Assembly (NCBI RefSeq): GCF_008919445.1 | Contig: NZ_VSLG01000002.1 | Location: 186,001 to 250,000, forward strand | From: Serinicoccus kebangsaanensis | GTDB taxonomy: Bacteria > Actinomycetota > Actinomycetes > Actinomycetales > Dermatophilaceae | Direction: 5' to 3' | Length of the DNA: 64,000 nt | In this document: positions 24,708 through 53,710 of the stretch, piece by piece | Numbering within the stretch: the stretch's first letter is position 1 | How the letters are laid out: each line of letters opens with the position of its first letter | The notes under the pieces: generated by a model | Database searches by the model: none | What the model saw: only the letters and a program-made list of their open reading frames with translations | Told to the model about the DNA's origin: nothing | Position numbers and translations under genes: made by a program

Positions 24708-24856
24708 CTCCGTCGGCCCCTCCCCTGAATCGGGAGTGTGGTCGGCATAGCACAACCTTCATCGGCGAACTTCCCGATGAGGGTTCTGCTAGGCCGACGT
24801 TGGTCCGGGGTGATCGGTGCACCGTGGCCGGTGACCGGCCGTGGCACGATCAGCCC

Positions 24857-27220
24857 ATGCACCCTGCCGACAGCCACGACGTGATCCGGGTCCGCGGAGC
24901 ACGGGTCAACAACCTCAAGGACGTCGACGTCGACATCCCCAAGCGCCGGATGACCGTCTTCTCCGGGGTCTCCGGGTCCGGCAAGTCGAGCCTGGTCTTC
25001 GGGACCGTGGCGGCCGAGAGCCAGCGGTTGATCAACGAGACCTACTCCGCCTTCCTGCAGTCCTTCATGCCGGTGACCAGCCGGCCCGAGGTGGAGGAGC
25101 TGGACGGCCTGTCCGCCGCCATCGTCGTCGACCAGGAGCGGCTCGGGGCCAACGCCCGGTCCACGGTGGGCACCGCCACCGACGCGTATGCCCTGCTCCG
25201 GATCCTCTTCAGCCGCCTGTCCGAGCCGCACGTCGGCCCCAGCTCGGCCTTCTCCTTCAACCTCGCCTCGGCGAGCGGCAGCGGGCGGCTGCTCGTGGAG
25301 AAGGACGGCAAACCGCCCAAGGGCGAGGTCGCGACGTTCGAGTTCATCGGCGGCATGTGCCCGGTCTGCGAAGGGCTGGGCCACCAGGCTGCGATCGACG
25401 AGGACGTCGTCGTCGACCGGTCCCTGTCGCTCAACGAGGGAGCCATCCTCGTCCCGGGCTACGGCGTCGGCACCTGGGGCTGGAAGATGTACGGCGACGA
25501 GGGGGCCGCGGCGGGGGGCAAGCTCGACATGGACAAGGCGCTCGGGGACTACTCCGAGCGGGAGTGGCACTGGTTGATGTACCAGGAACCCACCAAGGTG
25601 AAGTTCGCCGGGATCAACCTCACCTACGAGGGCCTGGTGGTGCGGATCCGGCGCACCCTCTTCGGCGACCGGGAGCCGAAGCAGAAGCACATGATCGAGT
25701 TCAAGGAGCGGGTCGCGACGACCGGCCCGTGCTCCGAGTGCGGCGGCACCCGGCTGAACGAGGCGGCCCGCACCGCGAAGGTCGCCGGCACGACCATCCC
25801 CGAGTGCACCGCGATGCAGGTCAGCGATCTGGCGGAGTGGGTCCGCGGCATCTCGGACTCCTCGGTGGGGCCGCTGCTGGCCAACCTCGCCGCGATGCTC
25901 GACGCGTTCACCGAGATCGGCCTGGGCTATCTCTCCCTGGACCGGGAGGCAGGGACCCTCTCCGGCGGCGAGGCGCAACGGGTCAAGATGATCCGGCAGC
26001 TGGGCAGCGCGCTCACCGATGTCACCTACGTCTTCGACGAGCCCACCGTGGGCCTGCACCCGCACGACATCCGCCGGATGATCGCGCTGCTGGAGTCGCT
26101 GCGGGACAAGGGCAACACCATCCTCGTGGTCGAGCACAAGCCGGAGGTCATCGAGGCGGCGGACCACGTCATCGACATCGGCCCGGGTGCCGGCAACGAC
26201 GGGGGCGAGATCACCTTCGAGGGCGACGTCGCCGGCCTGCGCGCCTCCGCCACGACGACCGGGCACTACCTGGACCACCGGATGCCGTTGCGCCCGGGCG
26301 AGGAGGTCCGTGAGCCCGCCGGGGTCCTGGAGATCAGGCGGGCCTCCACGCACAACCTCAAGGACGTCGACGTCGACATCCCCACCGGGGTCCTGGTGGC
26401 CATCACCGGGGTGGCGGGGTCGGGCAAGAGCTCCCTCGTCCACGGATCGTTGGGCGGCCGCGAGGACGTCCTCATCGTGGACCAGTCGGCGATCCGTGGG
26501 TCGCGCCGGTCCAACCCGGCCACCTACTCCGGCCTGCTCGACCCGATCCGCACCGTCTTCGCGAAGGAGAACGGCGTCAAGGCCGCGCTGTTCTCCCCCA
26601 ACTCCGAGGGGGCCTGCCCCGCCTGCAACGGGCAGGGCGTCATCTACCCCGAGCAGGGCATGCTGGTGGGCGGTCCGTCCCGGTGCGAGACGTGCGGTGG
26701 TCAGCGGTTCCGCGAGGACGTGCTGGAGCACACGTTGCACGGGCTGAACATCGCCGAGGTCTTCGACCTCTCGATCGCGCAGGCCGCCGAGGTCTTCACC
26801 ACCGGCAAGGCGCAGGGCATCCTCGCCCGGCTGGTCGACGTGGGCCTGGGGTACCTGCGGCTCGGACAACCCCTGACCACTCTGTCCGGCGGTGAGCGGC
26901 AGCGGCTCAAGCTCGCCTCCCAGCTCGGCGGCAAGGGCACCACGATCGTCCTGGACGAGCCGACGGCCGGGCTGCACCTGGCCGACACCGAGCGGCTGGT
27001 GACGATGCTGCACACCCTAGTCGAGCAGGGTCACAGCCTCATCGTCATCGAGCACAACCTGGCGGTGGTCGCGAACGCCGACCACGTGATCGACATCGGC
27101 CCAGGGGCCGGGCACGACGGGGGAGAGGTCGTCTTCCAGGGCACCCCCGCCGAGATGGTCGCGAGCGGCGCCACACTGACCGCCGAGCACCTGCAGGAGT
27201 GGGTGGGCGCCAGCTCCTGA
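24857..27220 (+). CDS. UvrA-like ABC ATPase (UvrA2/drug-resistance subgroup)
   Basis: A 787-residue protein with two ABC ATPase modules and UvrA-type zinc motifs but shorter than UvrA (about 940-1000), lacking the UvrB-binding region. It has Walker A sequences GVSGSGKSSLV and GVAGSGKSSLV, signatures LSGGEAQR and LSGGERQR, Walker B FDEPT and LDEPTAGL, and Cys pairs CPVCEG, CSECGG, CPACNG and CETCGG. UvrA2-type proteins act in auxiliary DNA repair or in self-resistance to DNA-binding drugs. There is no strong ribosome site before the ATG. It is a single gene. Confidence 0.88.
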   Translation: MHPADSHDVIRVRGARVNNLKDVDVDIPKRRMTVFSGVSGSGKSSLVFGTVAAESQRLINETYSAFLQSFMPVTSRPEVEELDGLSAAIVVDQERLGANARSTVGTATDAYALLRILFSRLSEPHVGPSSAFSFNLASASGSGRLLVEKDGKPPKGEVATFEFIGGMCPVCEGLGHQAAIDEDVVVDRSLSLNEGAILVPGYGVGTWGWKMYGDEGAAAGGKLDMDKALGDYSEREWHWLMYQEPTKVKFAGINLTYEGLVVRIRRTLFGDREPKQKHMIEFKERVATTGPCSECGGTRLNEAARTAKVAGTTIPECTAMQVSDLAEWVRGISDSSVGPLLANLAAMLDAFTEIGLGYLSLDREAGTLSGGEAQRVKMIRQLGSALTDVTYVFDEPTVGLHPHDIRRMIALLESLRDKGNTILVVEHKPEVIEAADHVIDIGPGAGNDGGEITFEGDVAGLRASATTTGHYLDHRMPLRPGEEVREPAGVLEIRRASTHNLKDVDVDIPTGVLVAITGVAGSGKSSLVHGSLGGREDVLIVDQSAIRGSRRSNPATYSGLLDPIRTVFAKENGVKAALFSPNSEGACPACNGQGVIYPEQGMLVGGPSRCETCGGQRFREDVLEHTLHGLNIAEVFDLSIAQAAEVFTTGKAQGILARLVDVGLGYLRLGQPLTTLSGGERQRLKLASQLGGKGTTIVLDEPTAGLHLADTERLVTMLHTLVEQGHSLIVIEHNLAVVANADHVIDIGPGAGHDGGEVVFQGTPAEMVASGATLTAEHLQEWVGASS

Positions 27221-27327
27221 TCTCATCCTCGCGGCGGAGCGATGTCGTGCTGCGGACGGAGGCGCGCAGCGCCTCATGGGGGCAGGCTGGCAGGCATCGG
27301 TTCATCCATGACCGGGAGGGATCCACC

Positions 27328-28617
27328 ATGCACCGACGCACCTCGACCATCGCCCTGAGCCTCGTGCTCGCCGGCATACCGGCCGCGACGACCGCGGCAC
27401 CGACCACGGGGGATTCCGACGACCGGGCGACGCCCGCGTCCATGGCCGCCGAGCGGGACGAGGAGCTGCGGTCGGCCATCCGGGACGCCGCCGCCACGGC
27501 CCGGGCGACCCAGGCGCGGCGGTCCGCGTCCGGTGAGCTCCCCGGCCCGGCGCGGGTGCCGCGCAGTCCGCAGCCGACGCTGGAGGCCGGCGTGGAGCAG
27601 CTCGTCGCCGACGGCGCCATCGGCGTCACGGCGAGGGTGGAGACCCCGACGCTGCGGTGGGCCGGGTCCGCCGGAACGCGGAGCCTGGACGGCGACGCGC
27701 CGGCGCTCGAGCGCAGCCCGCTGCGCGTCGCCAGCAACACCAAGACGATGATCGCCACGCTGGTGATGCAGGAGGTGGAGGCCGGGACCTGGACCCTCGA
27801 CACCCCGGCCGACGACGTCATACCCGGGTTGTTCCCCGACCACCCGGAGGTGACGATCCGGCACCTGCTCAGCCACACCTCTGGTATGCCGCGCGGCACC
27901 AACGAGCTGATCCTTCCCTACGTCGAGGACCCGGAGGACTGGGACGACTTCGTGACCGCGATCAGCCGCGACTACGCCGACGCCGAGCACGTCGACGCAG
28001 TCAACGCCGTGCCGTGGGCCTCCGAGCCGGGCGAGGCCTACAGCTACTCCAACACCGGTTACGTCGCCCTCGGCATGCTGCTGGAGGAGGCCACCGGCAC
28101 CGACGTCGGCACGCTGGTCACCGAGCGGATCCGTCGACCGGCGGGGATGGGCCAGAGCCGCTACCCGGAGGAGCCGGGGCTGCAGGGCGCCGCGCTGCAC
28201 GAGGCGATGTTCGTCGACGAGCGCGGCTGGATCGACCTGGACACCTTCGACCCGGATGTCTTCTCGCACAGCGGCGCCGCCGTCGCCACGGTGGAGGACC
28301 TGTCCGACCTGACCACGTCGCTGCTCGGCGGTGACCTGGTCTCCCCGGCGACGGTCGAGCAGATGCTCGCCCCGTCGTCGGCGAACCCGATGAACTACGG
28401 GCTCGGCATGTATGCGCTGCCCGATCCGTGCCGGCCGGGCGAGTTCCTCTACGGCCACGACGGCGCGTCCTTCGGCAGCCTGAGCCTGACCTTCGCCTCG
28501 CGGGACGGGTCACGCCAGCTGGCCCTCGGGGTGACGGGTCGGGACCTGACCGTGGGCCAGGACGCGCTCTACGACATCAACGACGCGCTGATCCCGATGC
28601 TGCTCGCCACCTGCTGA
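27328..28617 (+). CDS. Secreted serine hydrolase, class C beta-lactamase/DD-peptidase fold
   Basis: A 429-residue exported protein with a signal peptide ending near residue 23. The active-site motifs are SNTK (nucleophile Ser in VASNTKTM), YSN in YSYSNTGY and HDG in YGHDGASFG. Such proteins hydrolyse peptides or esters, or act as D-alanyl-D-alanine carboxypeptidases; beta-lactamase activity is not implied. A Cys near the end (CRPG) and the C-terminal ATC may form a disulfide. GGGAGGG precedes the ATG. The stop codon is also the first base triplet of a 22-bp repeat array. Confidence 0.88.
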   Translation: MHRRTSTIALSLVLAGIPAATTAAPTTGDSDDRATPASMAAERDEELRSAIRDAAATARATQARRSASGELPGPARVPRSPQPTLEAGVEQLVADGAIGVTARVETPTLRWAGSAGTRSLDGDAPALERSPLRVASNTKTMIATLVMQEVEAGTWTLDTPADDVIPGLFPDHPEVTIRHLLSHTSGMPRGTNELILPYVEDPEDWDDFVTAISRDYADAEHVDAVNAVPWASEPGEAYSYSNTGYVALGMLLEEATGTDVGTLVTERIRRPAGMGQSRYPEEPGLQGAALHEAMFVDERGWIDLDTFDPDVFSHSGAAVATVEDLSDLTTSLLGGDLVSPATVEQMLAPSSANPMNYGLGMYALPDPCRPGEFLYGHDGASFGSLSLTFASRDGSRQLALGVTGRDLTVGQDALYDINDALIPMLLATC

Positions 28618-28702
28618 CCGGCCGCACGGTTTGCGTCGACCGGCCGCACGGTCTGCGTCGACCGGCCGCACGGTTTGCGTGGACCGGCCGCACGTTCTGC
28701 AG
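28615..28702 (+). repeat. 22-bp tandem array, left copy (four units)
   Basis: Four head-to-tail 22-base units with the core GACCGGCCGCACGGTTTGCG; unit boundaries are 28615-28636, 28637-28658, 28659-28680 and 28681-28702. Units 1 and 3 differ by at most one base; unit 2 has C for T in the middle and unit 4 is most diverged. The array fills the whole gap between two convergent genes. A matching inverted array lies at 29170-29257. Confidence 0.95.
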
Positions 28703-28703
28703 G

Positions 28704-29141
28704 TCAGGGACGGTCCTCGCCCTCGTCGCCCTCGCTGAGGTGCATGGCGGCCTCCTCGGCGGGGTCGCCGGACCTCGCCGCTGGCTGCTCCAGCTCGAGG
28801 TCGGCGTCACCACCGAGCACGTCCTGGTCGGCCGGGATCGCGTCCGGGTCGTCACCGCCGAGCAGCTCCGGCTCGCGGTCGCCGGCGGTGTCCTCGCCAC
28901 CGACCTCCGGGCGGCCGTAGGACGTGCCCTCCTCCGGGACCTCCTGGGAGATCCGCTGGTCGATGGTCTCCTCGGCCGCGTCGTCGTCGGCGAACTCCGA
29001 GCTCACCGGCCGCCGCTCCGGGGGGCTCCACGCCACGTCCGCGGTGGCGTCGGGCTCGTCCAGGTTCACCTCGGCCTCCGCCTCCTGCTCCAGGCTGTAG
29101 TCACGGGTGCCGCTCTCGTCCTCGTAGAGGTGGTCGCTCAT
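28704..29141 (-). CDS. DUF5709 family protein
   Basis: A 145-residue, very acidic, probably disordered cytosolic protein of an actinobacterial family without known function. Family features are the N-terminal acidic DESGTRDYSLEQEAEAEVNL region, SPPERRP, the ETIDQRISQEVPEE block and a C-terminal AEEAAMHLSEGD. It lies between two inverted arrays of the same 22-base repeat, four units on each side, so its promoter region is made of or next to repeat sequence. Confidence 0.8.
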   Translation of the reverse strand: MSDHLYEDESGTRDYSLEQEAEAEVNLDEPDATADVAWSPPERRPVSSEFADDDAAEETIDQRISQEVPEEGTSYGRPEVGGEDTAGDREPELLGGDDPDAIPADQDVLGGDADLELEQPAARSGDPAEEAAMHLSEGDEGEDRP

Positions 29142-29169
29142 GGGTCTACCGTGCGCCCGCAGCGCGGTC

Positions 29170-29257
29170 GGCGCAAACCGTGCGGCCGGTCAGCGCAGAC
29201 CGTGCGGTCGGTCAGCGCAGACCGTGCGGTCGGTCGGCGCAAACCGTGCGGCCGGTC
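29170..29257 (-). repeat. 22-bp tandem array, right copy (four units, inverted)
   Basis: Four units at 29170-29191, 29192-29213, 29214-29235 and 29236-29257, in opposite orientation to the array at 28615-28702. Units 2 and 3 are identical and differ from 1 and 4 at three positions. A more degenerate unit may precede the array at about 29148-29169. It lies immediately upstream of the DUF5709 start codon. Confidence 0.95.
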
Positions 29258-29274
29258 CGTAGCATCGCGACAGC

Positions 29275-29340
29275 GTGCGCGTGTGCCCGACCTGGGCGTG
29301 GATGGCGGTGCGCGTGTGCCCGACCTGGGCGTGGATGGCG
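29275..29340. repeat. 33-bp perfect tandem duplication
   Basis: Two identical adjacent 33-base units (29275-29307 and 29308-29340) beginning GTGCGCGTGTGCCCGACC. They sit between the 22-bp array and the end of the arginine deiminase gene. No gene is seen in 29142-29387. Confidence 0.95.
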
Positions 29341-29387
29341 GCGAGGGTCAACGTGGCACGGGACAGCGTGTCGGTGCACCACCCACG

Positions 29388-32264
29388 TCATGGGGCCGCC
29401 GTGACCGGATCGTCCTCGAAGATCACCGTCCGCGCCCGGAAGCCGGTCCACTCCGGCACGTCCCACACTCGCGGTCGTCCGGCCCTCGTCGGACGCCGCA
29501 GCACGTTGGTGCCGCAGTGGATCTGGCCCATGTGCAGGTGGTAGTACCACGAGTCGATGAAGTGGAGGGTGAGCCCGAGGTCCTCGACGACAGCAGCGAT
29601 GAAGAGCTCGAAGAGGTCAACCATCCCGTCGGCGACGCGGATCCTGGAGAACTCGTCGCGGAGCAGCCCGCGCCCGTCGAGCGCCCCGGCATTGGCCCGT
29701 CGCAACCGCCGCCCAACCTCCTCCGCCGACTGCCCCGGGAAGCTGTCCTTGAAGACGGCGACGAGGTCGTCCACGTCCTGCATCCCGCCGTAGCTGCGCC
29801 GGATGGTGCCGCTCGGTGTCTCGTCATACGCCGGGGACTGCCGCCGCACCCAGGTCGTCTCGCGCGTCATCCGCCGGGCGGAGATGAGACGGCGCCCCAC
29901 CCGGGACCGTGCAGATTCCAGCCCGTCGACACCTTCCATCACTGTGCGCACGACCTGGACCGCGTCGTCGACGAGCATCCGCGGCCCGTAGGGCTTCGGC
30001 ACGAGCAGGTGGCTCCCGAGCACGACGAGGTTGGCGCAGTCCGGGGAGAAGGCGGACGTGGGCGTGCGCAGCGATCCGGGTGGGGGCCAGGGCCGGTATG
30101 CCGTGAGGTCCGGCACCGCGTCCCAGAGGACGGGGAGCGGGAGGACGGGAGCCCCCAGCTCGGAGCGCAGGAGCTGTCGGCTCGGCTCGAGGACCGATGT
30201 GTCGAGGATCTCCTGGGTGCTGTCGCCCCGGCTGTCGGTCTCGCACCACAGGATCTCGGCCGGTGTGATGTCGGCGCGGTAGTAACGCTCGCCCGCCCCG
30301 CGCACCATGCCGATCGGGTGGACGTTGAACGCATCCGAGTCGCCGAACTCGAACGTGAGGTTCTGGAAGATCCGCGGCGGCTGCACGTCAGTGTTCGGTC
30401 CACCGGGGCGAGCGGAGCCGACAAGGTGCTTCCACATCTTGCCCCGGAAGAGGCGCGTCACCGGGTGTGGCCCGCCGTCCATGAGGCGGGGTAGGACGCC
30501 GGACGGTCGACGCAGGCTGCTGTCGGGGTCCTCGATGGGCAGGCCGGTCATCTGGAGGCGACTCGCCTCCCGCAGGAGCGCGAGCGCCATCGCCGACGAG
30601 GCGTGCAGCACGGCGAAGCCGCTGCTGGGGCGGGGCACGACGGCGAACATCTCATCGACGTGACCGACGTCGAGCCAAGTTGTGTCGAGCTCGACGATCG
30701 GTTGGCGTCGCTGCGCGACGAGCAGGCGCAGGACGTCCGGGTCCATGAACTCGGCACCGCCCTGGAGGGAGCGGTTGCCCAGCAGGATCTTGCCGAGGTC
30801 GGCGCCCGGGACCGGAGGGGTCGACTCGATGTTGCCGCCGTAGACGGCCGAGCCCTGCATCTGCTCGGCTCGGGTGACCACCTTGCGAGCGATCTCCTCG
30901 GAGAAGGCCACGGCGGACCCCGACACGGGCAGGGTCACCGTCGCCCGACCCTGTGGACCCGCGACGGTGACGCCGCGCAGGGCCTCCGCGACCTGACGAC
31001 GGACCTCCGCGACGAGGGCGTCGACATCGGCCTCGCGCCGCAGGCTCGGCGCGGCCGACTTGGCCGCAGTGGCGAGGTCGTCGATGGTCCGCAGGTTGTC
31101 GGGGATGGCGCGCACCGTCGCGACCCAGTCCTCGGTGAACGTCACGGACGGCCCGCTCGGCGTCCCCGAGCCCCCCGAGGATCCCGAGCTACTCGAGGCG
31201 GCGCTCGTGAGGACGGACGCCGACTGGAGGAAGAGCCGGGGCAGGTCAGCGACCCTCGCGACGGCGACGAGGACCTCGGCGAGCGTGACCGGCGTGAACC
31301 GCGCGACTCCGCCGGATGCCGTCGACACGGGCAGCTCCCGCCTCCACAGCCCCGCATAGACCCCGAGGTCGGCCGACCGGAAGTGGCTGTCGACGAAGCC
31401 CCTGAGGTTGGCAGCATCCGGCCCGACGGCGCTGTTGCTGGCCATTCGGGGCAGGTGCAGGACGAGTTGGCGGAACCCGCTCGGACCCTCGACGTGCGCG
31501 TGCTGGAACTGGTCCTGCAGCCAGGCATCACCGGAGTTCAGCGACTCGGGGACCTCGACGACGGGGACGCCTGCGGCGCTCGCAGCTCGCCGCAGATCGG
31601 CGAGGGAGGGAGCATTGCCCGGCACCGACGCGGCATACACGCGTGTGGCCGGAGCCAGGCAGTCGTCGAGGATCGCCGGTGCCACCGAGAAGCATCCCCG
31701 ATCCTCCTCGGTGAAGGTCCCGTCCGGCCGCTCGTACCCGATCGCGAGGATGAACCTGTCATCGGCGACGTCGACGGCCCGGTATGCCGTGTCGATACTC
31801 GCGAGTCGCCCGAACGACGCGCCCGCGATGGTCCTCACCTGGAGGGTGAGGTCGAGGACACCCGATGTCGGGACGGACGGAAGGACGTAGGTGTCCGGCC
31901 GGCCGAGCCGGTGCGGCACGATGACACCGGTCGAGTCGGACAGGCGCACCCGGGTGTGCATGAGCATCCCCGGTAGGTGCGCGACGAGTTCCTCGCCCGG
32001 GCCCGGCCCTCCGCCTGCAAGCACCCGGATCTGGATCGGCACCAGCTCGTCGTCGCGGGTGAAGGCGGTGGCCAGGTCGTAGTCCGGCGTCGGGTCGCCG
32101 CCACTCCCACCGCCGACCGAGCCCGAGAGGGCTCGCTGGTCGCGGTCGAGGTTGGGGACCACGATGCACCCCGGGTGGGCGAGCCTCGCCGACCGCTCGT
32201 CCGCGCTGCTCGTGAGGAGCCCGTCCCGGTCGAAGTCGGCATGGAGCTCGAGTCGGCCCGTCAT
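29388..32264 (-). CDS. Protein-arginine deiminase (PAD) family protein
   Basis: A 958-residue homologue of the animal-type peptidylarginine deiminases, which turn peptidyl-arginine into citrulline. Catalytic motifs line up with human PAD4: Asp251 in WLQDQ (Asp350), His535 and Asp537 in DVGHVDE (His471, Asp473) and Cys917 in IHCGTN (Cys645). Other shared blocks are GGNIESTPP, NLVVLGSHLLVPKPYGP and HFIDSWYYHLHMGQ. The N-terminus has a calcium-like DFDRDG turn (Asp10, 12, 14). It is about 300 residues longer than vertebrate PADs, with extra segments around 310-470 and 780-880. There is no signal peptide. It starts 12 bases after the 1035-residue gene and is the second cistron of that operon. Confidence 0.93.
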   Translation of the reverse strand: MTGRLELHADFDRDGLLTSSADERSARLAHPGCIVVPNLDRDQRALSGSVGGGSGGDPTPDYDLATAFTRDDELVPIQIRVLAGGGPGPGEELVAHLPGMLMHTRVRLSDSTGVIVPHRLGRPDTYVLPSVPTSGVLDLTLQVRTIAGASFGRLASIDTAYRAVDVADDRFILAIGYERPDGTFTEEDRGCFSVAPAILDDCLAPATRVYAASVPGNAPSLADLRRAASAAGVPVVEVPESLNSGDAWLQDQFQHAHVEGPSGFRQLVLHLPRMASNSAVGPDAANLRGFVDSHFRSADLGVYAGLWRRELPVSTASGGVARFTPVTLAEVLVAVARVADLPRLFLQSASVLTSAASSSSGSSGGSGTPSGPSVTFTEDWVATVRAIPDNLRTIDDLATAAKSAAPSLRREADVDALVAEVRRQVAEALRGVTVAGPQGRATVTLPVSGSAVAFSEEIARKVVTRAEQMQGSAVYGGNIESTPPVPGADLGKILLGNRSLQGGAEFMDPDVLRLLVAQRRQPIVELDTTWLDVGHVDEMFAVVPRPSSGFAVLHASSAMALALLREASRLQMTGLPIEDPDSSLRRPSGVLPRLMDGGPHPVTRLFRGKMWKHLVGSARPGGPNTDVQPPRIFQNLTFEFGDSDAFNVHPIGMVRGAGERYYRADITPAEILWCETDSRGDSTQEILDTSVLEPSRQLLRSELGAPVLPLPVLWDAVPDLTAYRPWPPPGSLRTPTSAFSPDCANLVVLGSHLLVPKPYGPRMLVDDAVQVVRTVMEGVDGLESARSRVGRRLISARRMTRETTWVRRQSPAYDETPSGTIRRSYGGMQDVDDLVAVFKDSFPGQSAEEVGRRLRRANAGALDGRGLLRDEFSRIRVADGMVDLFELFIAAVVEDLGLTLHFIDSWYYHLHMGQIHCGTNVLRRPTRAGRPRVWDVPEWTGFRARTVIFEDDPVTAAP

Positions 32265-32276
32265 GTCGGCTCTGCC

Positions 32277-35200
32277 TCAGTTCTCGACCCAGGAGCCGTC
32301 CGGCTGCTTGGACCACGTCGGCAGCGAGTCGTCGGCGCGCAGCCGCACGAGCGAGGTCGGCACACGCACCTCCCACGGGTCGCCGACGGGGATCTCGTCA
32401 CCGGGACGGCCGAGCCGTTCGGTGAGCTCGTCCGCGATGGGCAGGTAGGTGTCATCCGAGATCGGCGGCAGCGAGCCGCCCATCCACGGGTCGCCGAAGA
32501 GCCGGAAGTGGTCGACGGCGGCCTCGAAGCCGGGGCGCACGGGCAGCTGGACCCGGACCGCGCCGGCCTTGAGGAAGGCCTCGTAGTCGGCGTCGTCGTC
32601 CTCGATGACGAGCTTGTCGAGCCAACCTTCCTTGCGCCCCCAGAAGTAGGAGTAGGGCACCCACGAGACGTTCTCCCACTCGAAGGCCTGCTCGAAGAAC
32701 CGCGCGTACGCGCCCTCGGTGGTCGCCTCCGCGAAGGCGATCTCCGGCAGCCCCGCACTCCCGGAGTCGATGGCGTCGAACGCGTCGAAGTGCTGGAGGG
32801 TGAGCGTGGAGATCGCGAGCCGCTTGATCTCGTCGAGCATGAGGGCGCGGTTCTTTGCCGACGGCCCGCTCTGGATCTCCGCCGGGGCCGATGCCTGGAG
32901 CTCGGCGAGCCGCGCTTCGTACTCGGACAGCCGTGCCTTGTAGGCCTGGGTGAGCTTGGCGTGGGTGTCGGCCCGCCAGAGGTCGAAGGCGCGGTTCGTC
33001 GCCTCGCAGATGACCTCGACGGCGATGGCGACGTCGCCGACCCGGTCGGTGACCATCGCGAACGGCACGGCTCCGGTCTCCTCGTCGAGCGAGGTCGACC
33101 AGACATTGCCGCCGCCGGAGAACCGGTGCGCGCGCTGACCGATGACGACGTCCACCGCCCAGTCGTCCCAGACCGTGACGACCTGGCCGACGGTGGCGCG
33201 GATCGCTCGGTAGCCGGCCGGTACCTCGACCCGGGTCGAGTTCGTGAACTCCTGGTCCTTGTCCTCACCACCGGTGTTGTAGTCGTAGGCGGACGTCACG
33301 TAGGGCTGCGGGGGCGGGGCGACGTCGGTCGCAAGGTACTCGCGCACGTAGGTCTGGTAGTTGTCCGGCGTGAGCTGACGCGGCGTGATCTCGAACGTGG
33401 CCGGCTTCTCCAGTTCGAGCGAGGCCGAGCGCCGAGTCCTGAACGCCTCCATGAGCATCGCGGCCGGCTCGGGGACCATGAGGTCGTAGATCGTGCGCGG
33501 TCCGTAATTGAAGACCTGCGCTTCGTACACCTTCTCGACCCACTGGTAGACGCCGGACACGTGCCCGGCACCGGTGGTGTTGTCGAAGCCGTGGCGGTCG
33601 ATGTTCTCGACCTCGCGGGTGATCCGCCGGGTCTCGCGCGACAGCACCCGCTCGGTGACCTTCTCCGACGCCTTCTGCGTCACGGTCCGCGCGGTTTCGG
33701 ACGCGGCCTTCTCGGCCTCCTGCGACTTGCGCTGCCACGACGCCTCGACGGACGCGCGGAACTCGACGGTTGGTCCGTAGCTCGCCTTGAGGCTGGCCGA
33801 GCCCTTGACCGAGGTCTCCTCCTGGAGCGCCTTCTCGGACTCGCGACGCATCTCGAACCGGTCGGTCGTCTCGAGCGACCGCTCGGTCGTCGTCTCGACC
33901 TCCCGCTCGGTGAGCGTGATGACCTCGGTCTCGAGCCGGGTGCGATGCGTCCGCTCCTTCTTCTCACCCTTGAGGATGGTGGCGATGTGCGAGACCTCGG
34001 CACCGGCATACCCGGTGAGCTGCTGCTTGACGAGGAGGAGGTCCATGATCCCGGCTGGCTCGATGTCTGCGTGGCTCGTCGGCACCCGCTCGGGCAGAAA
34101 CGGCCGGACCGCGTCGAGGAGCATGCCCGGCGTGAACGACAGGATGTAGGCCATCGGCTTGGACGTCAGCGCGACGGACGTGCCGCCCATCGTCTTGAAC
34201 GACTTCTGGGTGAGCGGCACGAGCGACTGCGCGGCCTCGTGGATCTGCTGCCGCTCGGCGGTGAGGGCCTCGACCGTGCGGGCGATCGGCTGGCTCGGGT
34301 CGTAGCCCAGGTCGCTCAGCGTCCCCTTGGTCTCCTTGCTCAGGCCCTTGACCGTCTCCGGCGTGAGGCGCAGGCCGACCAGGCCGGGCAGGACCGGAGT
34401 CATGGCTGGCGAGCCGGTGATGGCCAGGCGTGCCCCGGAGGGTGCAGCCAGCTTGGGCGCGGTGACGCCGAGCTGGTCGATCGCGAAGTTCTCGAAGGAC
34501 CGTCGCACCACGTCTGCCGGGGCTTCGAGGGCGCCGAGCACGTTGGGGCGGTCCTTGCCGATGTCCTTGCCCGACGCGGCGAAGATGCTGCGCAACGCGG
34601 CCTGGCGGATCGCCACCTCCTCGGCGAAGAGCTGGGTCGGCCGCAGCTTGGGGTCGGGCATGAGTGCTGGGTGCTCGCGCACGCCGACGGTCGCGAAGCC
34701 GTCCGGGCGGATGGCGCGCAGCTCGCCGATGGCGGCGTCGATGGCGGTGTGCCTCGAGACGAGGTCCTTGAGCTTCTCCGACAGGTCGGGTGGTGTCGCG
34801 CGCGGCGGCGTCGGCGGCCGCGTCGGGAGCGCGTGCCCGGGTACGCGAAGTCCGCGGCGGGCCGCGGCGACGAGGTCCTCGCGCGACTCCGGGAAGGCGG
34901 GCTTCGCGGCATACCGACGGAGGAACTCAAGCGCACGCAGGACGGCGCCGAGCCGGCGGATCGGCAGCTTGTGGTGGGCCGCCGAGAGCTTGATCGCGAG
35001 GATGGAGTCCTTGACCCGCACCTCCAGTGCCGGGAGACCGGCGCGGTCGAGGTATGCCGCAGGGTCGCCTCCCAGGGCGTCGGTCAGGGCAGTCTCGACG
35101 TCGCTGCGCGAGGGGGCGTCGTTGTTGGCGAGCAGCTCGTCGATCGCGGTCGACGCGGCGTCGAGACCGGCCGTCGTCGCGTTGCCGGCGATGTCGCCGA

Positions 35201-35384
35201 CGAACTTCGCCGAGGTGGCGTACTTCGCCGCGAGCGCGCGTAACTGGTCGTGCCGAGTGTCGCCGTTGGGGATCGCCGCGCAGGCCGACTGGAACTCGGA
35301 TTCGGCAGTGAGGTCGATCGGGTCGGACTCGTCGGGCGTGCGGTTGGGTTCGCGGACGATGTTGAACCGGAACAGTGTCTCCAC
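32277..35384 (-). CDS. Large protein of unknown function, operon partner of the PAD
   Basis: A 1035-residue protein I cannot assign. There is no signal peptide and no clear membrane helix. Residues about 1-470 are mixed helical with a Pro-rich patch (188-199); residues 470-600 are strongly charged and helical, likely coiled coil (LETEVITLTEREVETTTERS, then KASEKVTERVLSRETRRITR), interrupted by a beta-like KGSASLKASYGPTVEFRASV. Residues 600-650 hold a block that looks conserved (GVYQWVEKVYEAQVFNYGPR). The C-terminal third has beta domains and a second coiled region near 810-840. A GTG start with GGAGG six bases before it is clear. It precedes the PAD gene with a 12-base gap. Confidence 0.85.
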   Translation of the reverse strand: METLFRFNIVREPNRTPDESDPIDLTAESEFQSACAAIPNGDTRHDQLRALAAKYATSAKFVGDIAGNATTAGLDAASTAIDELLANNDAPSRSDVETALTDALGGDPAAYLDRAGLPALEVRVKDSILAIKLSAAHHKLPIRRLGAVLRALEFLRRYAAKPAFPESREDLVAAARRGLRVPGHALPTRPPTPPRATPPDLSEKLKDLVSRHTAIDAAIGELRAIRPDGFATVGVREHPALMPDPKLRPTQLFAEEVAIRQAALRSIFAASGKDIGKDRPNVLGALEAPADVVRRSFENFAIDQLGVTAPKLAAPSGARLAITGSPAMTPVLPGLVGLRLTPETVKGLSKETKGTLSDLGYDPSQPIARTVEALTAERQQIHEAAQSLVPLTQKSFKTMGGTSVALTSKPMAYILSFTPGMLLDAVRPFLPERVPTSHADIEPAGIMDLLLVKQQLTGYAGAEVSHIATILKGEKKERTHRTRLETEVITLTEREVETTTERSLETTDRFEMRRESEKALQEETSVKGSASLKASYGPTVEFRASVEASWQRKSQEAEKAASETARTVTQKASEKVTERVLSRETRRITREVENIDRHGFDNTTGAGHVSGVYQWVEKVYEAQVFNYGPRTIYDLMVPEPAAMLMEAFRTRRSASLELEKPATFEITPRQLTPDNYQTYVREYLATDVAPPPQPYVTSAYDYNTGGEDKDQEFTNSTRVEVPAGYRAIRATVGQVVTVWDDWAVDVVIGQRAHRFSGGGNVWSTSLDEETGAVPFAMVTDRVGDVAIAVEVICEATNRAFDLWRADTHAKLTQAYKARLSEYEARLAELQASAPAEIQSGPSAKNRALMLDEIKRLAISTLTLQHFDAFDAIDSGSAGLPEIAFAEATTEGAYARFFEQAFEWENVSWVPYSYFWGRKEGWLDKLVIEDDDADYEAFLKAGAVRVQLPVRPGFEAAVDHFRLFGDPWMGGSLPPISDDTYLPIADELTERLGRPGDEIPVGDPWEVRVPTSLVRLRADDSLPTWSKQPDGSWVEN

Positions 35385-35509
35385 GGTGGGCCTCCTCAGG
35401 TCGGCGACGCATGAGGAGGAGTGCCGGTGGCTGCCGCCAGATACATCGCGGCGGCCACCATCCGGGCTCCGCGAGGGACCGTGCTGGTCAGCCGCCCGGC
35501 CGGGAAGGC
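35385..35509. other. Leader region of the PAD operon
   Basis: No recognisable gene. On the minus strand a small frame starting MVAAAMYLAAATGTPPHASP stops at a TGA fused to the GGAGG ribosome site of the 1035-residue gene; it could be a leader peptide or chance. Confidence 0.3.
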
Positions 35510-35614: not shown

Positions 35615-37081
35615 ATGAGCGAGAAAACCCCGGAAGGTCCGTCAGGGTCCGGCAGTAACGTTCGCGGTATGGGTCCGACCGAGACGGCCGGGGTCGTCAG
35701 GACCGACCCCGACCGCACCTTCCACCACCTGCTGGTGAACACCGCGCTCGCCGGTCTCACCACGTCCTACCTGTGGTTCGGGCTGACCTTCTGGGCCTAC
35801 CTGCAGACCCGGTCGGTCATGGCGACCGGGATCATCGGCGGCGCCTACATGCTGCTGGTCGCGTTCAGCAGCGTCTTCTTCGGCACCCTGGTCGATCACC
35901 ACCGCAAGCTGCCGGTGATGCGCTTCTCGAGCACCGTGACGCTGGTGGCCTTCACCGTGGCCGGGCTGCTCTACCTCGCGATCCCGGACGAGGACATGAC
36001 CGACCTCACCCAGCCGTGGTTCTGGACCCTGTCGGTCATCATCCTGGCCGGCGCGGTGGTCGAGCACATGCGCAACATCGCGCTCTCGACCTGCGTCACG
36101 ATCCTCATCCCGGACGAGCGGCGCGCCAACGCCAACGGCCTGGTCGGCTCCGTGCACGGCATCGCCTTCATCGCCACCAGCGTGCTCTCCGGGCTGTCCA
36201 TCGGGCTGCTCGGCATGGGCTGGACGATCGTCGTCGCCATCGGCCTCATCGCCGTGGGCCTGGCCCACCTGGCCACGTTGCGGATGCCGCAGGAGGTCGT
36301 GCCGGCCGCGTCGGAGGAGGGGGACGCACCCGGCAGGATCGACCTGGCCGGGTCGCTGGCGGTGATCCGCAGCGCTCCCGGGCTGCTGTCCCTCATCTTC
36401 TTCGCGACCTTCAACAACCTCATCGGGGGCGTCTACATGGCGCTGATGGACCCCTACGGCCTGGAGCTGTTCTCGGTCGAGATGTGGGGGATCGTCTTCG
36501 GGGTGGCCTCGACCGGGTTCATCGTCGGCGGACTGGTCATCGCCAAGACCGGCCTGGGCGCCAACCCGATGCGCACCCTGCTGCTGGCGGTCATGGTGAT
36601 GGGCTTCCTCGGGGCCATCTTCACGATCCGGGAGTGGGCCTGGCTCTACGTCCTCGGCATCTTCGTCTACCTGTGCCTCATCCCCGCCGTCGAGGCGGCG
36701 GAGCAGACGGTCATCCAACGCGTGGTGCCGCTGCGGCGGCAGGGCCGGGTCTTCGGCCTGGCGATGGCGGTGGAGTCCGCGGCGGCACCGGTCACCGCGT
36801 TCCTCATCGCGCCGCTCGCCGAGTTCTGGATCTTCCCGTGGGTGCGCTCGCCGGAGGGCCGGGAGTCCGTCGCCTGGCTCCTCGGCGAGGGCGAGGCACG
36901 GGGCATCGCCCTGGTCTTCCTGGTCGCCGGTCTGATCATGGTCGCCGCGGCCCTGCTGGCGATGGCTTCGCCCGCCTACCGGGCGCTGTCGCGGAGCTAC
37001 ACCTCCGCAGCGCCGCCGGAGGACGGCTCCCTCGAGGACCTCCCCGACGACGGCGTCCCCGCCGCTGTGGTCGGTCGCTGA
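35615..37081 (+). CDS. MFS transporter
   Basis: A 488-residue major facilitator with about twelve membrane helices. The loop between helices 2 and 3 reads FGTLVDHHRKLPVM, matching the family motif G-x-L-a-D-r-x-g-r-k. The central loop is acidic (AASEEGDAPGRIDLAG) and the C-terminal tail is soluble and acidic. It resembles drug/macrolide efflux MFS proteins but the substrate is unknown. GGAAGGGG stands just before the ATG; a second ATG at 35670 also fits the family length. Confidence 0.85.
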   Translation: MSEKTPEGPSGSGSNVRGMGPTETAGVVRTDPDRTFHHLLVNTALAGLTTSYLWFGLTFWAYLQTRSVMATGIIGGAYMLLVAFSSVFFGTLVDHHRKLPVMRFSSTVTLVAFTVAGLLYLAIPDEDMTDLTQPWFWTLSVIILAGAVVEHMRNIALSTCVTILIPDERRANANGLVGSVHGIAFIATSVLSGLSIGLLGMGWTIVVAIGLIAVGLAHLATLRMPQEVVPAASEEGDAPGRIDLAGSLAVIRSAPGLLSLIFFATFNNLIGGVYMALMDPYGLELFSVEMWGIVFGVASTGFIVGGLVIAKTGLGANPMRTLLLAVMVMGFLGAIFTIREWAWLYVLGIFVYLCLIPAVEAAEQTVIQRVVPLRRQGRVFGLAMAVESAAAPVTAFLIAPLAEFWIFPWVRSPEGRESVAWLLGEGEARGIALVFLVAGLIMVAAALLAMASPAYRALSRSYTSAAPPEDGSLEDLPDDGVPAAVVGR

Positions 37082-37100: not shown

Positions 37101-37120
37101 GCGCCGCTCCTCAGCGGCGC
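37101..37120. terminator. Hairpin between convergent MFS and flavoprotein genes
   Basis: An 8-bp perfect stem, GCGCCGCT with AGCGGCGC, and a 4-base loop. The stop codon of the flavoprotein gene starts inside the loop. No U-tract, as is usual here. Confidence 0.45.
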
Positions 37121-38778
37121 TGCTCGTCCAGGTAGCCGTGCACGAGCGACACCACGGACGCGCCCTCACCCGTCGCCGACGCCACCCGCTTCATGCTCCC
37201 GGCGCGGATGTCCCCCGCGGCGAAGACGCCGGGGACGCTGGTCGTCAGCGGTGTGGGCGGCAGCTCCTCCTCCCACCTCTCCTGCGGCACCTGCCGGCCG
37301 GTGAGCACGAAGCCGCGCTCGTCGCGGGCCAGCTCCTGCGGCAGCCAGTCGCAGTGCGGCTCGGCCCCGATGAGCAGGAAGAGGCCGCCCACCTCGAGCC
37401 GCTTGCGGTGCTCCTTGTCCCGGTGCTCGAACTCCAGCCACTCCAGCCGGTCCTCGCCCCCGCCGTCGACCACCTGCGCCCGACCGTAGACGGTGATCCG
37501 GGGGTTGGCGTCCAGCTCCTTGATCAGGTATGCCGACATCGTCGCCGAGAGGTCGTCGCGCCGCACGACGACGGCCACCGACCGGGCGAACCTGGCCAGG
37601 TGGACCGCGGCCTGTCCGGCGGAGTTGCCGCCGCCCACGACGACGACGTCCCGGCCCTCCATCTCCCGGGAGGCCGCCATCGCCGCCCCGTAGTGGACCC
37701 CACGGCCGACCAACTCCTCGAGCGAGTCGATGCCCAGCCGGCGGTACTCCACACCCGTGGCGATGACGACCGTGCGCGCCCTGACGTCACCGCCCTCGGT
37801 GACCACCCGGTGCGGCTGCCCGTCCCGCCCCGGGACGAGCTCCACCGCCGGCCACCCGGTGTAGAACTGGGTGCCGAAGCGGATCGCCTGCAGCCGCGCC
37901 CGCTGGGCCAGGCGCATACCGGAGATGCCACGGGGGAAGCCGAGGTAGTTGCGGATCATCGAGCTGGTCCCGGCCTGCCCCCCGATCGCCTCCGACTCGA
38001 GCACGACCGTGCGCAGCCCCTCGCTCGAGGCGTAGACCGCCGAGGCCAGCCCCGCCGGACCGGCACCGACGACCACGACATCCGCGACCTGCTCGGTCTC
38101 GATCTCGTCGGGGCGGCCGTAGAGCCGGGTCGCGACGTCCCGGACCGACCGGACCGACCCCACGTCGCCGTTGTAGGTCGCGACGACCGGCCACTGCGGG
38201 CTCGCCTCGTCCAGCCGCGCCAGCGCCTGCTGACCCGCCTCGCTCTCCGGGGTGTGCACCCCGGTCGGTGCGCCCACCCGGCCCAGGTAGTCCAGCAGCT
38301 CGCGGGTCAGCGCGTCCTTCTCCGGGTTGATGATCTGGATCGACTCCACCTCGGGCGTGGCGACCGTGGCGTTCCAGTCGTTCAGCAGCTCGCCGACGGC
38401 GACGTGGAACTCCTCGTCCCGCTTGCCGCGCGGCATGAGCATGAAGGCGTCGATGGCGCCGGTGGCGACGGGGGTGCGCATCTCCACCGCGCCCTGCCGG
38501 AAGTGGTCCCAGTGCGAGACGGCCAGCCTGCGCGCGGTCGGCACCAGGTGGCGCAGCTTGGCGAGCACCTGCTCGGTCTCCACGCCCTGCACCGGGTGGT
38601 CGACGACCAGCAGCGCGATCGGGATGCCGTCGGCGACCATGGTCCCGATGAGCTGCTTGGCGGCCAGTGGCGTGCTCGTGGGGATGACGGCGTACTCCCC
38701 GCTGTACCTCGCGAACTGCGTGAGCAGCGTGTCCAGGTGCGAGCCGGAGAGGACCACGATGGCGGGCGTGTGGGTCAC
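37111..38778 (-). CDS. FAD-dependent thioredoxin reductase-like oxidoreductase with N-terminal receiver-like domain
   Basis: A 555-residue flavoprotein. Residues about 1-140 look like a response-regulator-type domain (IVVLSGSHLDTLL, LLVVDHPVQG) and 140-210 like a thioredoxin-fold linker; 217-555 form the two-dinucleotide reductase with VVVGAGPAGLASAVYASSEG (FAD), GGQAGTSSMIRNYLGFPRGI, VVVVGGGNSAGQAAVHLARF (NADPH) and GVFAAGDIR. The redox CxxC of thioredoxin reductase is absent: the equivalent stretch reads HYGAAMAASREMEG. The GTG start is 13 bases after the antiporter stop, so the two are co-transcribed. Confidence 0.88.
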   Translation of the reverse strand: MTHTPAIVVLSGSHLDTLLTQFARYSGEYAVIPTSTPLAAKQLIGTMVADGIPIALLVVDHPVQGVETEQVLAKLRHLVPTARRLAVSHWDHFRQGAVEMRTPVATGAIDAFMLMPRGKRDEEFHVAVGELLNDWNATVATPEVESIQIINPEKDALTRELLDYLGRVGAPTGVHTPESEAGQQALARLDEASPQWPVVATYNGDVGSVRSVRDVATRLYGRPDEIETEQVADVVVVGAGPAGLASAVYASSEGLRTVVLESEAIGGQAGTSSMIRNYLGFPRGISGMRLAQRARLQAIRFGTQFYTGWPAVELVPGRDGQPHRVVTEGGDVRARTVVIATGVEYRRLGIDSLEELVGRGVHYGAAMAASREMEGRDVVVVGGGNSAGQAAVHLARFARSVAVVVRRDDLSATMSAYLIKELDANPRITVYGRAQVVDGGGEDRLEWLEFEHRDKEHRKRLEVGGLFLLIGAEPHCDWLPQELARDERGFVLTGRQVPQERWEEELPPTPLTTSVPGVFAAGDIRAGSMKRVASATGEGASVVSLVHGYLDEQRR

Positions 38779-38791
38779 CGTTGCAGCCTAG

Positions 38792-40642
38792 TCAGGTGGC
38801 AAGGTGGTGGACGTAGCACCAGCGCCAGCTCTCGCCCGGCTCCGCCGACTGCATGACCGGGTGCCCGGTGTCCCGGTGGTGGGCGGAGGCGTGCTGTGCG
38901 GGGGAGGAGTCGCAGCAGGCCACGTGGCCGCACTCCAGGCACTGGCGCAGCGCGACCACCTCGATGCCCTCGCGCTCGCACAGCTCGCACCGGGGGTCGG
39001 ACGCGCGCGCGGCGACGGGGTATGCCCGCAGCTCGGCGCACTGCAGGTGCCCGTCGCTGCCGGTGGCCCGGATGTCCTCCCGGGCGGTCGTGGAGGAGTC
39101 GATCATCGACTCCTCGAGGTCGAGCATGCCGAGCACCTGGCGGACCACGGGGGAGGGCACCTTCCCCTTGGCCCGGATGTGCAGGACCCGCTCCCGCTCG
39201 CGCACGATCATCGTCCGCCGCAGCTCGGCATACGCTTCCGAGGGCGTCTGCCGGCCCTCCGTAGTGGACAGCTGCTCCCACGCGGCGAAGGTCCGCTGGT
39301 CCAGCCGCTGCCGGATGGTGCTGGCCACGGCGGAGTTCTCCGCCGTCTCCAGCTCCTCCAGGCGTGCCAGCCCGGCGCTCGTCGCCTGCTGCAGCAGGGT
39401 GGCCCGGGCCAGGGCGTCGTCGGCGGGGTCCGGCGGCCGCACCCGCAGGGCGCGGGTCAGCGCGGGCAGGGTGAGCCCTTGCAGCAGCAGCGTGCCGGCG
39501 ACCACCGTGAGCGCCACGAGCAGCAGCAGGTCACGGTAGGGCGCGTCCACCGGCAGGATGAGGGCGGCCGCGAGGGTGACCACCCCGCGCATCCCGGCCC
39601 AGCCGATCAGCGTCGTCTCGGCGGCACCGGCCGGCTCGCGCCGGTCGCCCAGCCGGCTGCCGAGCAGCGGCCGGGTCAGGTGCACCCAGGCCAGGCGCAC
39701 GACGACGACGGTCACCAGCACGGCGAGGGGCACCCCGACGATCGTCCCGAGCGCGAGATCGGTGCCTGACAGGTCCTCGACGATCCACCGGGCCTGGAGA
39801 CCGATGAGCAGGAAGACGACGTTCTCCAGCAGGAACGAGATGGTGCGCCAGGTCGTGCTCTCCACGATCCGGCCCTGCGCGGTCTGCAGGGTGGAGGAGC
39901 GGTGGCTGAGCAGCAGCCCCGCGACGACGACGCTGATCACGCCGGAGGCATAGATCGTCTCCGCCAGCAGGTAGGCCGCGAACGGCGTGACGAAGGAGAC
40001 GGCGGTGTCCAGCAGCGGGTCGTGCAGCCGCCGACGCACCCAGGCCACGACCTTGTAGACGACCAGGCCGACGAGCACCCCGCCGCCGGCGGCGACGAGG
40101 AAGTCGCCGAGCACCCCGGAGGCGCTCACCCCGCCGACCATGGCGGCGATCGAGGTGCGCAGCGCCACCAGCGCCGTCGCGTCGTTGAGCAGCGACTCAC
40201 CCTCCAGCACCGAGACCACCCGCCGCGGCAGCCCGATCCGCCGGCCCACCGCGGTCGCGGCCACGGCGTCGGGCGGCGCGACGATCGCCCCGATGGCGAG
40301 CGCGACCGGCCAGCCGATGTCCGGCAGCAGGGCCTTGGTGACGACCGCGACGGCGACCATCGTGACCAGGACCGCCGCGACGGACAGCAGCATGATGGGG
40401 CGCAGGTTGGCCTTGAGGTCCACCAGCGAGGTCGACAGCGAGGCGGTGTAGAGCAGCGGCGGCAGCAGCCCGATCAGCACGATCTCCGGCTGCAGGTGGA
40501 TCTCCGGCACCCCGGGCAGGAAGGACAGGCCGACGCCGATGACGGTGAGCAGCAGCGGGGCGGGTGCGCCGAGGCGCTGCGAGAGGGTCTCGCCGATGAT
40601 GACGACGAGGGCCAGCAGCACCAGCACGAGAGCGATCTCCAC
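38792..40642 (-). CDS. Na+/H+ antiporter with C-terminal UBP-type zinc finger
   Basis: A 616-residue CPA1/NhaP-like cation/proton antiporter. About twelve membrane helices occupy residues 1-410, with VAPPDAVAATAV and GESLLNDATALVA carrying the ion-binding Asp residues. A cytosolic helical region follows (420-530). The last 80 residues form a UBP-type zinc finger with ordered Cys/His ligands in CELCEREG, CLECGHVAC and HRDTGH. Such fingers bind ubiquitin tails in eukaryotes; the bacterial ligand is unknown. The start is a GTG in GTGGAGATC. It is the first gene of an operon with the flavoprotein reductase. Confidence 0.88.
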   Translation of the reverse strand: MEIALVLVLLALVVIIGETLSQRLGAPAPLLLTVIGVGLSFLPGVPEIHLQPEIVLIGLLPPLLYTASLSTSLVDLKANLRPIMLLSVAAVLVTMVAVAVVTKALLPDIGWPVALAIGAIVAPPDAVAATAVGRRIGLPRRVVSVLEGESLLNDATALVALRTSIAAMVGGVSASGVLGDFLVAAGGGVLVGLVVYKVVAWVRRRLHDPLLDTAVSFVTPFAAYLLAETIYASGVISVVVAGLLLSHRSSTLQTAQGRIVESTTWRTISFLLENVVFLLIGLQARWIVEDLSGTDLALGTIVGVPLAVLVTVVVVRLAWVHLTRPLLGSRLGDRREPAGAAETTLIGWAGMRGVVTLAAALILPVDAPYRDLLLLVALTVVAGTLLLQGLTLPALTRALRVRPPDPADDALARATLLQQATSAGLARLEELETAENSAVASTIRQRLDQRTFAAWEQLSTTEGRQTPSEAYAELRRTMIVRERERVLHIRAKGKVPSPVVRQVLGMLDLEESMIDSSTTAREDIRATGSDGHLQCAELRAYPVAARASDPRCELCEREGIEVVALRQCLECGHVACCDSSPAQHASAHHRDTGHPVMQSAEPGESWRWCYVHHLAT

Positions 40643-40659
40643 GGACCCATTCTCCCCCT

Positions 40660-40721
40660 CGCCCGAATTCGACCGCTGGTTCCGTCGCCATGGCGAACAC
40701 TCCAGAGGTCGAATTCGGGCG
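40660..40721. repeat. Palindromic intergenic element, copy 1
   Basis: Arms CGCCCGAATTCGACC (40660-40674) and GGTCGAATTCGGGCG (40707-40721) pair perfectly and extend inward with one mismatch to about 20 bp. The centre is the perfect palindrome TCGCCATGGCGA. A related element lies at 57580-57637. Here it sits between divergent genes, upstream of both the antiporter and prpD. Confidence 0.85.
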
Positions 40722-40869
40722 GGAGGGGCCGGGGAGCACCGGATCCGGGCTTGACCCGGCGGCAGTCCTGGCGGGTGGCTAGCCTGGGGCCAGCCCACCC
40801 CGTCCGTGGCGGCCCACGTCGCTCCGGCGGGTGCGCGCCGCGACCGTTCCCGCCCACCGAGGAGAAGTG

Positions 40870-43286: not shown

Positions 43287-43299
43287 GAGAGGACTCACC

Positions 43300-53595: not shown

Positions 53596-53617
53596 TGATC
53601 GTGATCTGATCGTGATC
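53596..53617. repeat. 11-bp tandem repeat upstream of the subtilase gene
   Basis: TGATCGTGATC occurs twice head to tail (53596-53606, 53607-53617) in the 227-base gap between divergent genes. Such a direct repeat in a promoter region could be a regulator site. Confidence 0.5.
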
Positions 53618-53710
53618 TCGGGCCAGAGGCTACTCGCGCGTCAGCACGTAGTGTCGCTGGTGGCCCATGCGGATCCCGTGCGTGCGCCGGATCGTCAAAG
53701 GAGATCTTTC

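Follow-up and report, generated by a model that had tools for sequence, protein, structure and literature searches.

The genome of Serinicoccus kebangsaanensis encodes a protein-arginine deiminase (PAD) within a 64,000-nucleotide stretch of contig NZ_VSLG01000002.1 (positions 186,001 to 250,000), which is referred to here as the window. The PAD gene (29388..32264, minus strand) encodes 958 amino acids from an ATG start and is the second of two genes that form a cassette. The first gene (32277..35384, minus strand), here called the carrier gene, encodes a protein of 1035 amino acids from a GTG start and lies 12 bp upstream of the PAD gene on the same strand, in agreement with the dedicated operon partner noticed in a previous analysis of this DNA without database searches (the sequence-only reading). 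The GTG start agrees with the METLFRF-like N-terminus of carrier relatives, and a candidate ribosome-binding site, AGGAGG (35391..35396, minus strand), is positioned 6 nt before it. The GC content of the PAD open reading frame by codon position is 0.72/0.52/0.90, which is similar to that of the other genes called in the window.

The product of the PAD gene matches the PAD family PF03068 of Pfam with an E-value of 1.9e-38 and a score of 132.9 bits (cut-off 25), the match being divided into four pieces. It also matches the sequences of the human PAD1-4 chains in the PDB, with E-values from 1.7e-26 to 1.9e-22, and more weakly that of PAD6. In the sequence alignments, residues Asp251 (31512..31514), His535 and Asp537 (30654..30662), and Cys917 (29514..29516, all minus strand) correspond to the four catalytic residues of human PADs, which are Asp350, His471, Asp473, and Cys645 in the PAD4 numbering of PMC13023937. 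The four residues are invariant across all five PADs found in cassettes. The AlphaFold2 model of the window PAD, calculated from five sequences, is poor (pLDDT 46.7, pTM 0.32), and the family membership therefore rests on sequence, by which the gene is a genuine member of the PAD family with an intact catalytic set, as had been proposed.

The spacing of conserved blocks relative to human PAD3 gives an excess of about 168 residues within residues 275-475 of the window PAD, about 92 within residues 569-732, and about 116 within residues 763-887. The two large extra segments described in the sequence-only reading were thus both found, one at residues ~305-475 (275-475 by spacing alone; 30840..31352, minus strand) and the other at residues ~763-887 (29604..29978, minus strand), but the linker at residues 569-732 (30069..30560, minus strand) is longer as well. 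No hydrophobic N-terminus resembling a signal peptide is visible in the translation when judged by eye, as stated before. The N-terminal DFDRDG turn at residues 10-15, followed by PNLDRD, is present; however, it is not the unusual feature it was taken for, since ordinary PADs have counterparts at the same place. Three of the four ordinary PADs compared have NRDG (L014 and L015) or DRNG (L018) there, and all four continue with PN[IVL]DDD.

PADs have been described as two-domain enzymes in actinobacteria and fungi and as three-domain enzymes in cyanobacteria and animals (Cummings et al., PMC8826395). A phylogenetic tree was calculated from 16 PADs, of which five are from cassettes, four are from the phylum of the window, and seven are cyanobacterial (from the phylum of locus L031, Pseudanabaena); it contains no animal sequence, and L016, L017, L141, and L145-L148, in which the motif test gave no single PAD frame, are outside it. 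The cassette PADs form a clade of their own with support of 100/100, apart from the four same-phylum PADs, which constitute a separate 100/100 group, and from two groups of cyanobacterial PADs. Therefore, the label of an animal/cyanobacterial-type enzyme, given to the window PAD earlier, is not borne out. The Pfam scan gave no match of the window PAD to PAD_N at E ≤ 1, and the DFDRDG turn is reached as early as residues 10-15; no cyanobacterial PAD was scanned as a positive control, and PAD_N is described as degenerate in cyanobacteria. The plain actinobacterial type of PMC8826395 is not supported either; among the PADs compared, the window PAD falls in a third clade, apart from both the cyanobacterial PADs and the secreted PADs of its own phylum.

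The cassette PADs share the lack of a visible signal peptide, long extra segments, and the replacement by glutamine of two acidic residues that bind calcium in PAD4. Glu351 and Glu353 of PAD4 are given as ligands of calcium 1 and 2 in PMC13023937, and calcium site 1 is called conserved in all PAD groups in PMC8826395. The residues at these positions in the window PAD are Gln252 and Gln254 (31503..31511, minus strand), and the motif WxQDQ[FY]Q occurs beside the catalytic Asp in all five cassette PADs. The five cassette PADs all have Gln at the position of Glu353, and all ten of the other sequences that contain the motif have Glu there (the motif was not found in L140). The position of Glu351, Gln in all five, is variable in other bacterial PADs and is Gln also in L018. 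The cassette PADs thus lack two acidic calcium ligands near the active site, which bears on calcium control and not on membership of the fold family. The glutamines at the two positions predict that the calcium dependence of the cassette PADs is altered or lost.

Nothing of note matches the carrier in Pfam, PHROGs, NCBIfam, PADLOC, or the sequences of the PDB, where the best profile match (E 0.053) is low-complexity and helical, and is not credible. Relatives of the carrier were surveyed in the collection genome_contigs, which covers the genomes of 84,980 species, in one scan with a seven-row alignment and a single narrow peptide pattern. Of the 493 stretches that fit the pattern, 407 encode carrier relatives. 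The search for the gene pair in other genomes, proposed in the sequence-only reading, yielded five PAD cassettes in all, the window included. As judged from the titles of their records, carriers are spread across Actinomycetota, Pseudomonadota, Cyanobacteria, Acidobacteria, Bacteroidota, Chloroflexi, Bacillota, and Verrucomicrobia, and occur in the archaea Methanosaeta and Methanoperedens. Fourteen plasmid records, one of them archaeal, contain carrier relatives, and no PAD match was found in the plasmid records. Among 50,697 phage records neither the PAD nor the carrier had a match at an E-value of 1e-5, and IMG/VR contains three carrier loci and no PAD relative. The carrier is rare within groups; it was found in two of 58 relatives and in two of 396 genomes of the phylum (the window's own genome included in both counts), and the PAD in four of the 396, its own included. 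The genome of Vibrio penaeicida (G454, locus L026) has two carrier matches, the second at C6:131058-133028. A literature search, judged by titles and the starts of abstracts, with bioRxiv and most subscription papers outside its reach, gave no description of the pair or of a PAD in a toxin-type cassette.

The locus-level counts given here rest on the best 80 of the 407 carrier-relative stretches. At 73 of the 80 loci, an open reading frame of at least 300 amino acids on the same strand starts between -60 and +60 bp from the carrier stop, and the median gap between the carrier stop and the second gene is 16 bp for all 80 loci. The choice of open reading frame favours long frames, and the counts include near-duplicate genomes (for example, L026 and L047, and four Micromonospora loci). 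The frames of eight second genes were set by codon GC content, and at L030 and L079 a second gene is not clearly discernible. The 88 second-gene products, from 87 loci and the window, fall into 14 families of at least two members and 14 singletons. The families hold despite the bias towards long frames, because similarity across genomes does not stem from the choice of frame.

The second genes encode enzymes and toxin-like proteins of many kinds. Matches above the Pfam cut-offs identify PADs (five of five), patatin (all three scanned of a seven-member family), the PT-TG pre-toxin domain (five of five scanned, from an 11-member family), LodA lysine oxidase (both scanned of three members), M23 peptidase (one scanned of a four-member family, all from Micromonospora), and phospholipase D (PLD; L067). 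An amidase with a SPOR domain at L089 is also above the cut-off, but its gene is separated from the carrier by 46 bp and may be an ordinary neighbour. Matches to an Rv2525c-like glycosidase (L070) and to PhoD (L033) are just under the cut-off. The largest family, with 15 members of 339-371 amino acids (L008, L037, L057, L062, and 11 other loci), gave no Pfam match when six of its members were scanned; several members start like VLVAGVDYEFKGVDF. In the family of L027, L036, L041, L044, L078, and L087, we take the N-terminus (YLELGNYLTDVSQFRDP in L044) to resemble that of fungal Het-C, and L036 has no Pfam match beyond one at chance level. Many further families are without a Pfam match. The only profile link between second-gene families with a probability above 70% connects F1 and F3 over about 63 residues at the position of PT-TG, a domain that Pfam found in none of six F3 members. 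No common tag was seen by eye at the ends of 44 second-gene products. Cellulomonas loci L058, L069, and L083 carry the cassette with other second genes.

The second genes have been reshuffled among the carriers. A tree of 59 carriers was calculated from residues 440-1035 of an alignment (A2) that comprises the window's carrier together with those of 58 of the 80 loci, and from which frameshifted, truncated, overextended, and near-duplicate rows had been left out (L021 duplicates L020). For 49 rows with second genes from 12 families, 24 changes of family are needed on the tree, compared with 11 under perfect inheritance and with a minimum of 31 and a mean of 35.4 in 200 shuffles of the labels. 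The second genes are therefore partly inherited and often exchanged. The PAD requires two changes, since the carriers of the window, L022, and L023 are in one place in the tree and those of L091 and L096 in another, and a single clade of PAD carriers is rejected with a p-AU of 3.7e-91 (quick tree). Inside each of the two groups, the relationships of carriers and PADs are concordant. An effector-specific docking region in the carrier was not supported by a region-by-region comparison; at higher C-terminal identity, pairs of carriers with second genes of the same family resemble each other slightly more in all of the regions compared.

All four same-genus stretches examined lack the pair and have collinear flanks. 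The cleanest case, genome G022, aligns to positions 24840-29213 of the window and then to 35711-36067 and 37109-43571, with about 1.15 kb in place of the pair and a shortened copy of the adjoining major facilitator superfamily (MFS) gene. Genomes G007, G011, and G012 are without both the pair and the MFS gene; for G007, the alignment covers 24836-29269 and resumes with 37111-44415. These collinear flanks indicate that the pair was gained or lost at a variable spot. There is no tRNA gene near the pair, scans of neighbouring genes showed no integrase, and the repeats found in the window do not flank the pair on both sides. The GC content of the pair is 0.704 and that of its surroundings 0.720. 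Two short tandem arrays, at 29165-29257 (22-bp unit, 4.2 copies) and 29275-29341 (33-bp unit, two copies), follow closely on the 3' end of the PAD gene and lie at the edge of the segment that G022 lacks. The variable spot is bordered on one side by a gene for a very acidic protein of 145 amino acids (28704-29141, minus strand), which is matched in full or in part in 30 of 31 same-genus genomes, its own included.

The cassettes do not share a fixed third gene. When 3054 flanking open reading frames were clustered, the most widely shared neighbour occurred in nine loci, at varied distances and on either strand. The PAD loci have no common third gene, and the matches they share are short, of low identity, and of low complexity. 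This speaks against an immunity protein or export machine common to the cassettes, although immunity specific to one enzyme would have been missed. The LodA loci do have a third gene in common. A FAD-dependent protein, presumably of the LodB kind, adjoins LodA in the lysine-oxidase cassette L049:9834-12774, where its gene is the third, about 45 bp downstream.

The carrier was modelled with AlphaFold2 from 59 sequences, with a pLDDT of 73 and a pTM of 0.49. In the model, a short N-terminal strand contains the motif MExLFRFxxxRP (residues 1-11; 35352..35384, minus strand), of which F5 and R11 are conserved in at least 90% of the 59 rows. The N-terminal half, to residue ~430, is predicted to be helical and evolves fast. 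It is followed by long strands at residues ~445-498 and 576-638, a beta-sandwich at 693-796 (32997..33308, minus strand), and a conserved mixed C-terminus. The beta-sandwich resembles many unrelated jelly-rolls and sandwiches with VIA-align Z-scores of about 7-8, and a comparison with a viral fold library gave generic sandwiches and tail fibres. Residues 523-551 (33732..33818, minus strand), which are situated between these long strands, form an amphipathic beta-hairpin with a YGP turn, a candidate membrane hairpin recognized from the alternation of hydropathy. Of 1024 windows of 11 residues, those at 523 and 525 have the two highest values of period-2 alternation averaged over the 59 sequences. 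The hairpin is poorly placed in the monomer model, as would be the case for an oligomeric beta-pore.

It is possible, with a probability of roughly 0.5, that the PAD is the interchangeable enzyme of a mobile, polymorphic two-gene effector cassette, in which the carrier acts on behalf of the enzyme, perhaps as a translocator. The existence of the two-gene cassette is itself very probable. Its first gene would provide a large conserved carrier and its second gene one of many unrelated enzymes or toxin-like proteins. The carrier may act for the enzyme at a membrane, where the N-terminal motif, the fast-evolving helical half, and the amphipathic hairpin could form an oligomeric beta-pore or translocator; such a membrane or translocation role is conceivable, although it falls somewhat short of being probable. 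The carrier would then bring the enzyme to or into another cell, and the chances that the target is a cell other than the producer are about even. A delivered PAD would convert arginines of target proteins to citrulline. The competition-type role mentioned in the sequence-only reading is plausible. More tentatively, the carrier family may be a new class of self-contained membrane-inserting delivery device of bacteria and archaea, the enzymes of which are swapped by gene exchange, and the PAD version would citrullinate proteins as a weapon against other cells or to manipulate them, free of the customary control by calcium.

Several observations weigh against an effector cassette with a translocating carrier. 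No signal peptide was seen, and no known export route was found, for either the carrier or the PAD. Windows 784 and 944, which belong to ordinary predicted strands of the carrier, rank third and fourth in hydropathy alternation with values of 2.12 and 2.11, close to the 2.28 and 2.18 of the hairpin; the near-equal values mark a conserved amphipathic hairpin without proving a membrane hairpin. The stem region has a pLDDT of about 30-50 in the model, and residues 550-600 look helical by hydropathy. Foldseek and VIA-align yield only a generic beta-sandwich. The sole match to a binary-toxin pore, iota Ib, is weak (Foldseek rank 47, E 0.018), and no such pore is among the 50 matches listed by VIA-align. 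At 40-55% C-terminal identity, the N-terminal half of the carrier shows no co-variation with the second gene (region test with earlier family labels), so that no docking domain emerges. No recurrent neighbour is fit to be a common immunity gene, although the comparison would miss immunity proteins that protect against one toxin only. Finally, four of the five PAD cassettes were located via the carrier, and these four are metagenome-assembled genomes. The linkage is therefore partly a product of selection, and binning errors are a concern.

Some of these observations would also be explained if the carrier served as a chaperone, scaffold, or inhibitor, keeping the enzyme in the producer until its release on lysis and having no role at a membrane. 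The tight pairing of the genes, the signal peptides not seen, the generic sandwich domain and helical N-terminal half of the carrier, and the lack of recurrent export genes near the cassettes are consistent with storage. However, one conserved partner for many unrelated second genes calls for a general property and not a specific fit, and the conserved amphipathic hairpin has no obvious role in a soluble chaperone; this explanation is unlikely. It is a more distant prospect that the pair works inside the cell as a conflict module, for instance an anti-phage defence, in which the carrier senses infection and activates a toxic enzyme. Swappable effectors behind a conserved protein and the patchy distribution of the pair are in line with defence, and patatin and PLD domains are effectors in known defence systems. 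Nevertheless, none of eight proteins (the carrier, the PAD, and six other second-gene products) had a PADLOC match at E ≤ 0.01, no neighbours recur beyond a few loci, and, to judge from the family names, the M23 peptidase and amidase, which act on the cell wall, and LodA, which acts on amino acids, are ill-suited to a cytosolic suicide switch.

Two further explanations are very improbable. The second-gene products could be cargo of extracellular contractile injection systems (eCIS), with the carrier as a loading adaptor. Such systems are described also from environmental bacteria and archaea (PMC8213781), and 12 of 51 cassette genomes contain the marker Pvc16_N. However, Pvc16_N, the single marker tested, is absent from the other 39, including the window's own genome, the completeness of which is 100, and term searches found neither deiminase nor patatin in the main text of two papers on eCIS toxins. 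Alternatively, the enzyme could be a bacterial PAD of the ordinary kind and its partner a substrate or a regulator, for example, a structural protein that it citrullinates, as the close spacing and apparent co-transcription of the genes would allow and as the sequence-only reading had considered. The partner is unlikely to be a substrate, because its relatives precede several enzyme families that are not known to act on arginine, and many of unknown function; moreover, the cassette PADs form a clade separate from the ordinary PADs compared.

The effector cassette would be of interest for both of its genes. The PAD represents a branch distinct from the types it was compared with, in which calcium-ligand positions are altered, and citrullination gains a testable microbial role. 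The carrier family, which has no Pfam match, adjoins a wide variety of enzymes in both bacteria and archaea. Should the carrier be a translocator, the cassettes would amount to a delivery system that has gone unrecognised and that comes with a ready-made catalogue of enzymes, some of them from families whose function is unknown.

Other genes of the window encode a UvrA-like ABC protein (24800-27220, plus strand), in which the UvrA DNA-binding domain PF17755 is below the cut-off and which adjoins a beta-lactamase-family protein; a sodium/proton exchanger with a C-terminal zf-UBP zinc finger (38792-40798, minus strand); and a large subtilase with PA and fn3_5 domains and three CW_binding_2 cell-wall stretches (53612-57397, plus strand).

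The window PAD resembles the two-domain PADs, as they are described in PMC8826395, in its catalytic domain and residues, the NRDG-like turn, the PN[IVL]DDD-like motif, and the absence of a PAD_N match. In contrast, the four same-phylum PADs have a start resembling a signal peptide (by eye), lack the large extra segments, and have Glu at the position of Glu353; no carrier was found in the loci of about 4 kb tested around the same-phylum PADs L014-L018. The three-domain PADs of cyanobacteria and animals in the same description share the catalytic domain and residues with the window PAD, which differs in having no PAD_N match and in its position outside the cyanobacterial groups. The Porphyromonas enzyme PPAD is also a bacterial protein citrullinase and is set apart here by its published description alone, as having a distant PAD_C and neither PAD_N nor PAD_M (PMC8826395).

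Polymorphic toxin systems, as presented in PMC3482391, combine one conserved module with highly variable toxic domains, an arrangement that the cassettes repeat at the level of two genes. The PT-TG pre-toxin domain of these systems is also present in one large second-gene family. However, the carrier and the enzyme are separate genes in the cassettes, which occur also in archaea; the carrier is without a known trafficking or secretion domain, and the cassette loci have no recurrent immunity gene. Binary toxins have separate pore and enzyme components. The cassettes differ from them in that no sequence relationship was found, no signal peptide was seen, and the enzymes are far more varied, whereas the likeness consists in two adjacent genes, one encoding a protein with a candidate membrane hairpin and the other an enzyme.

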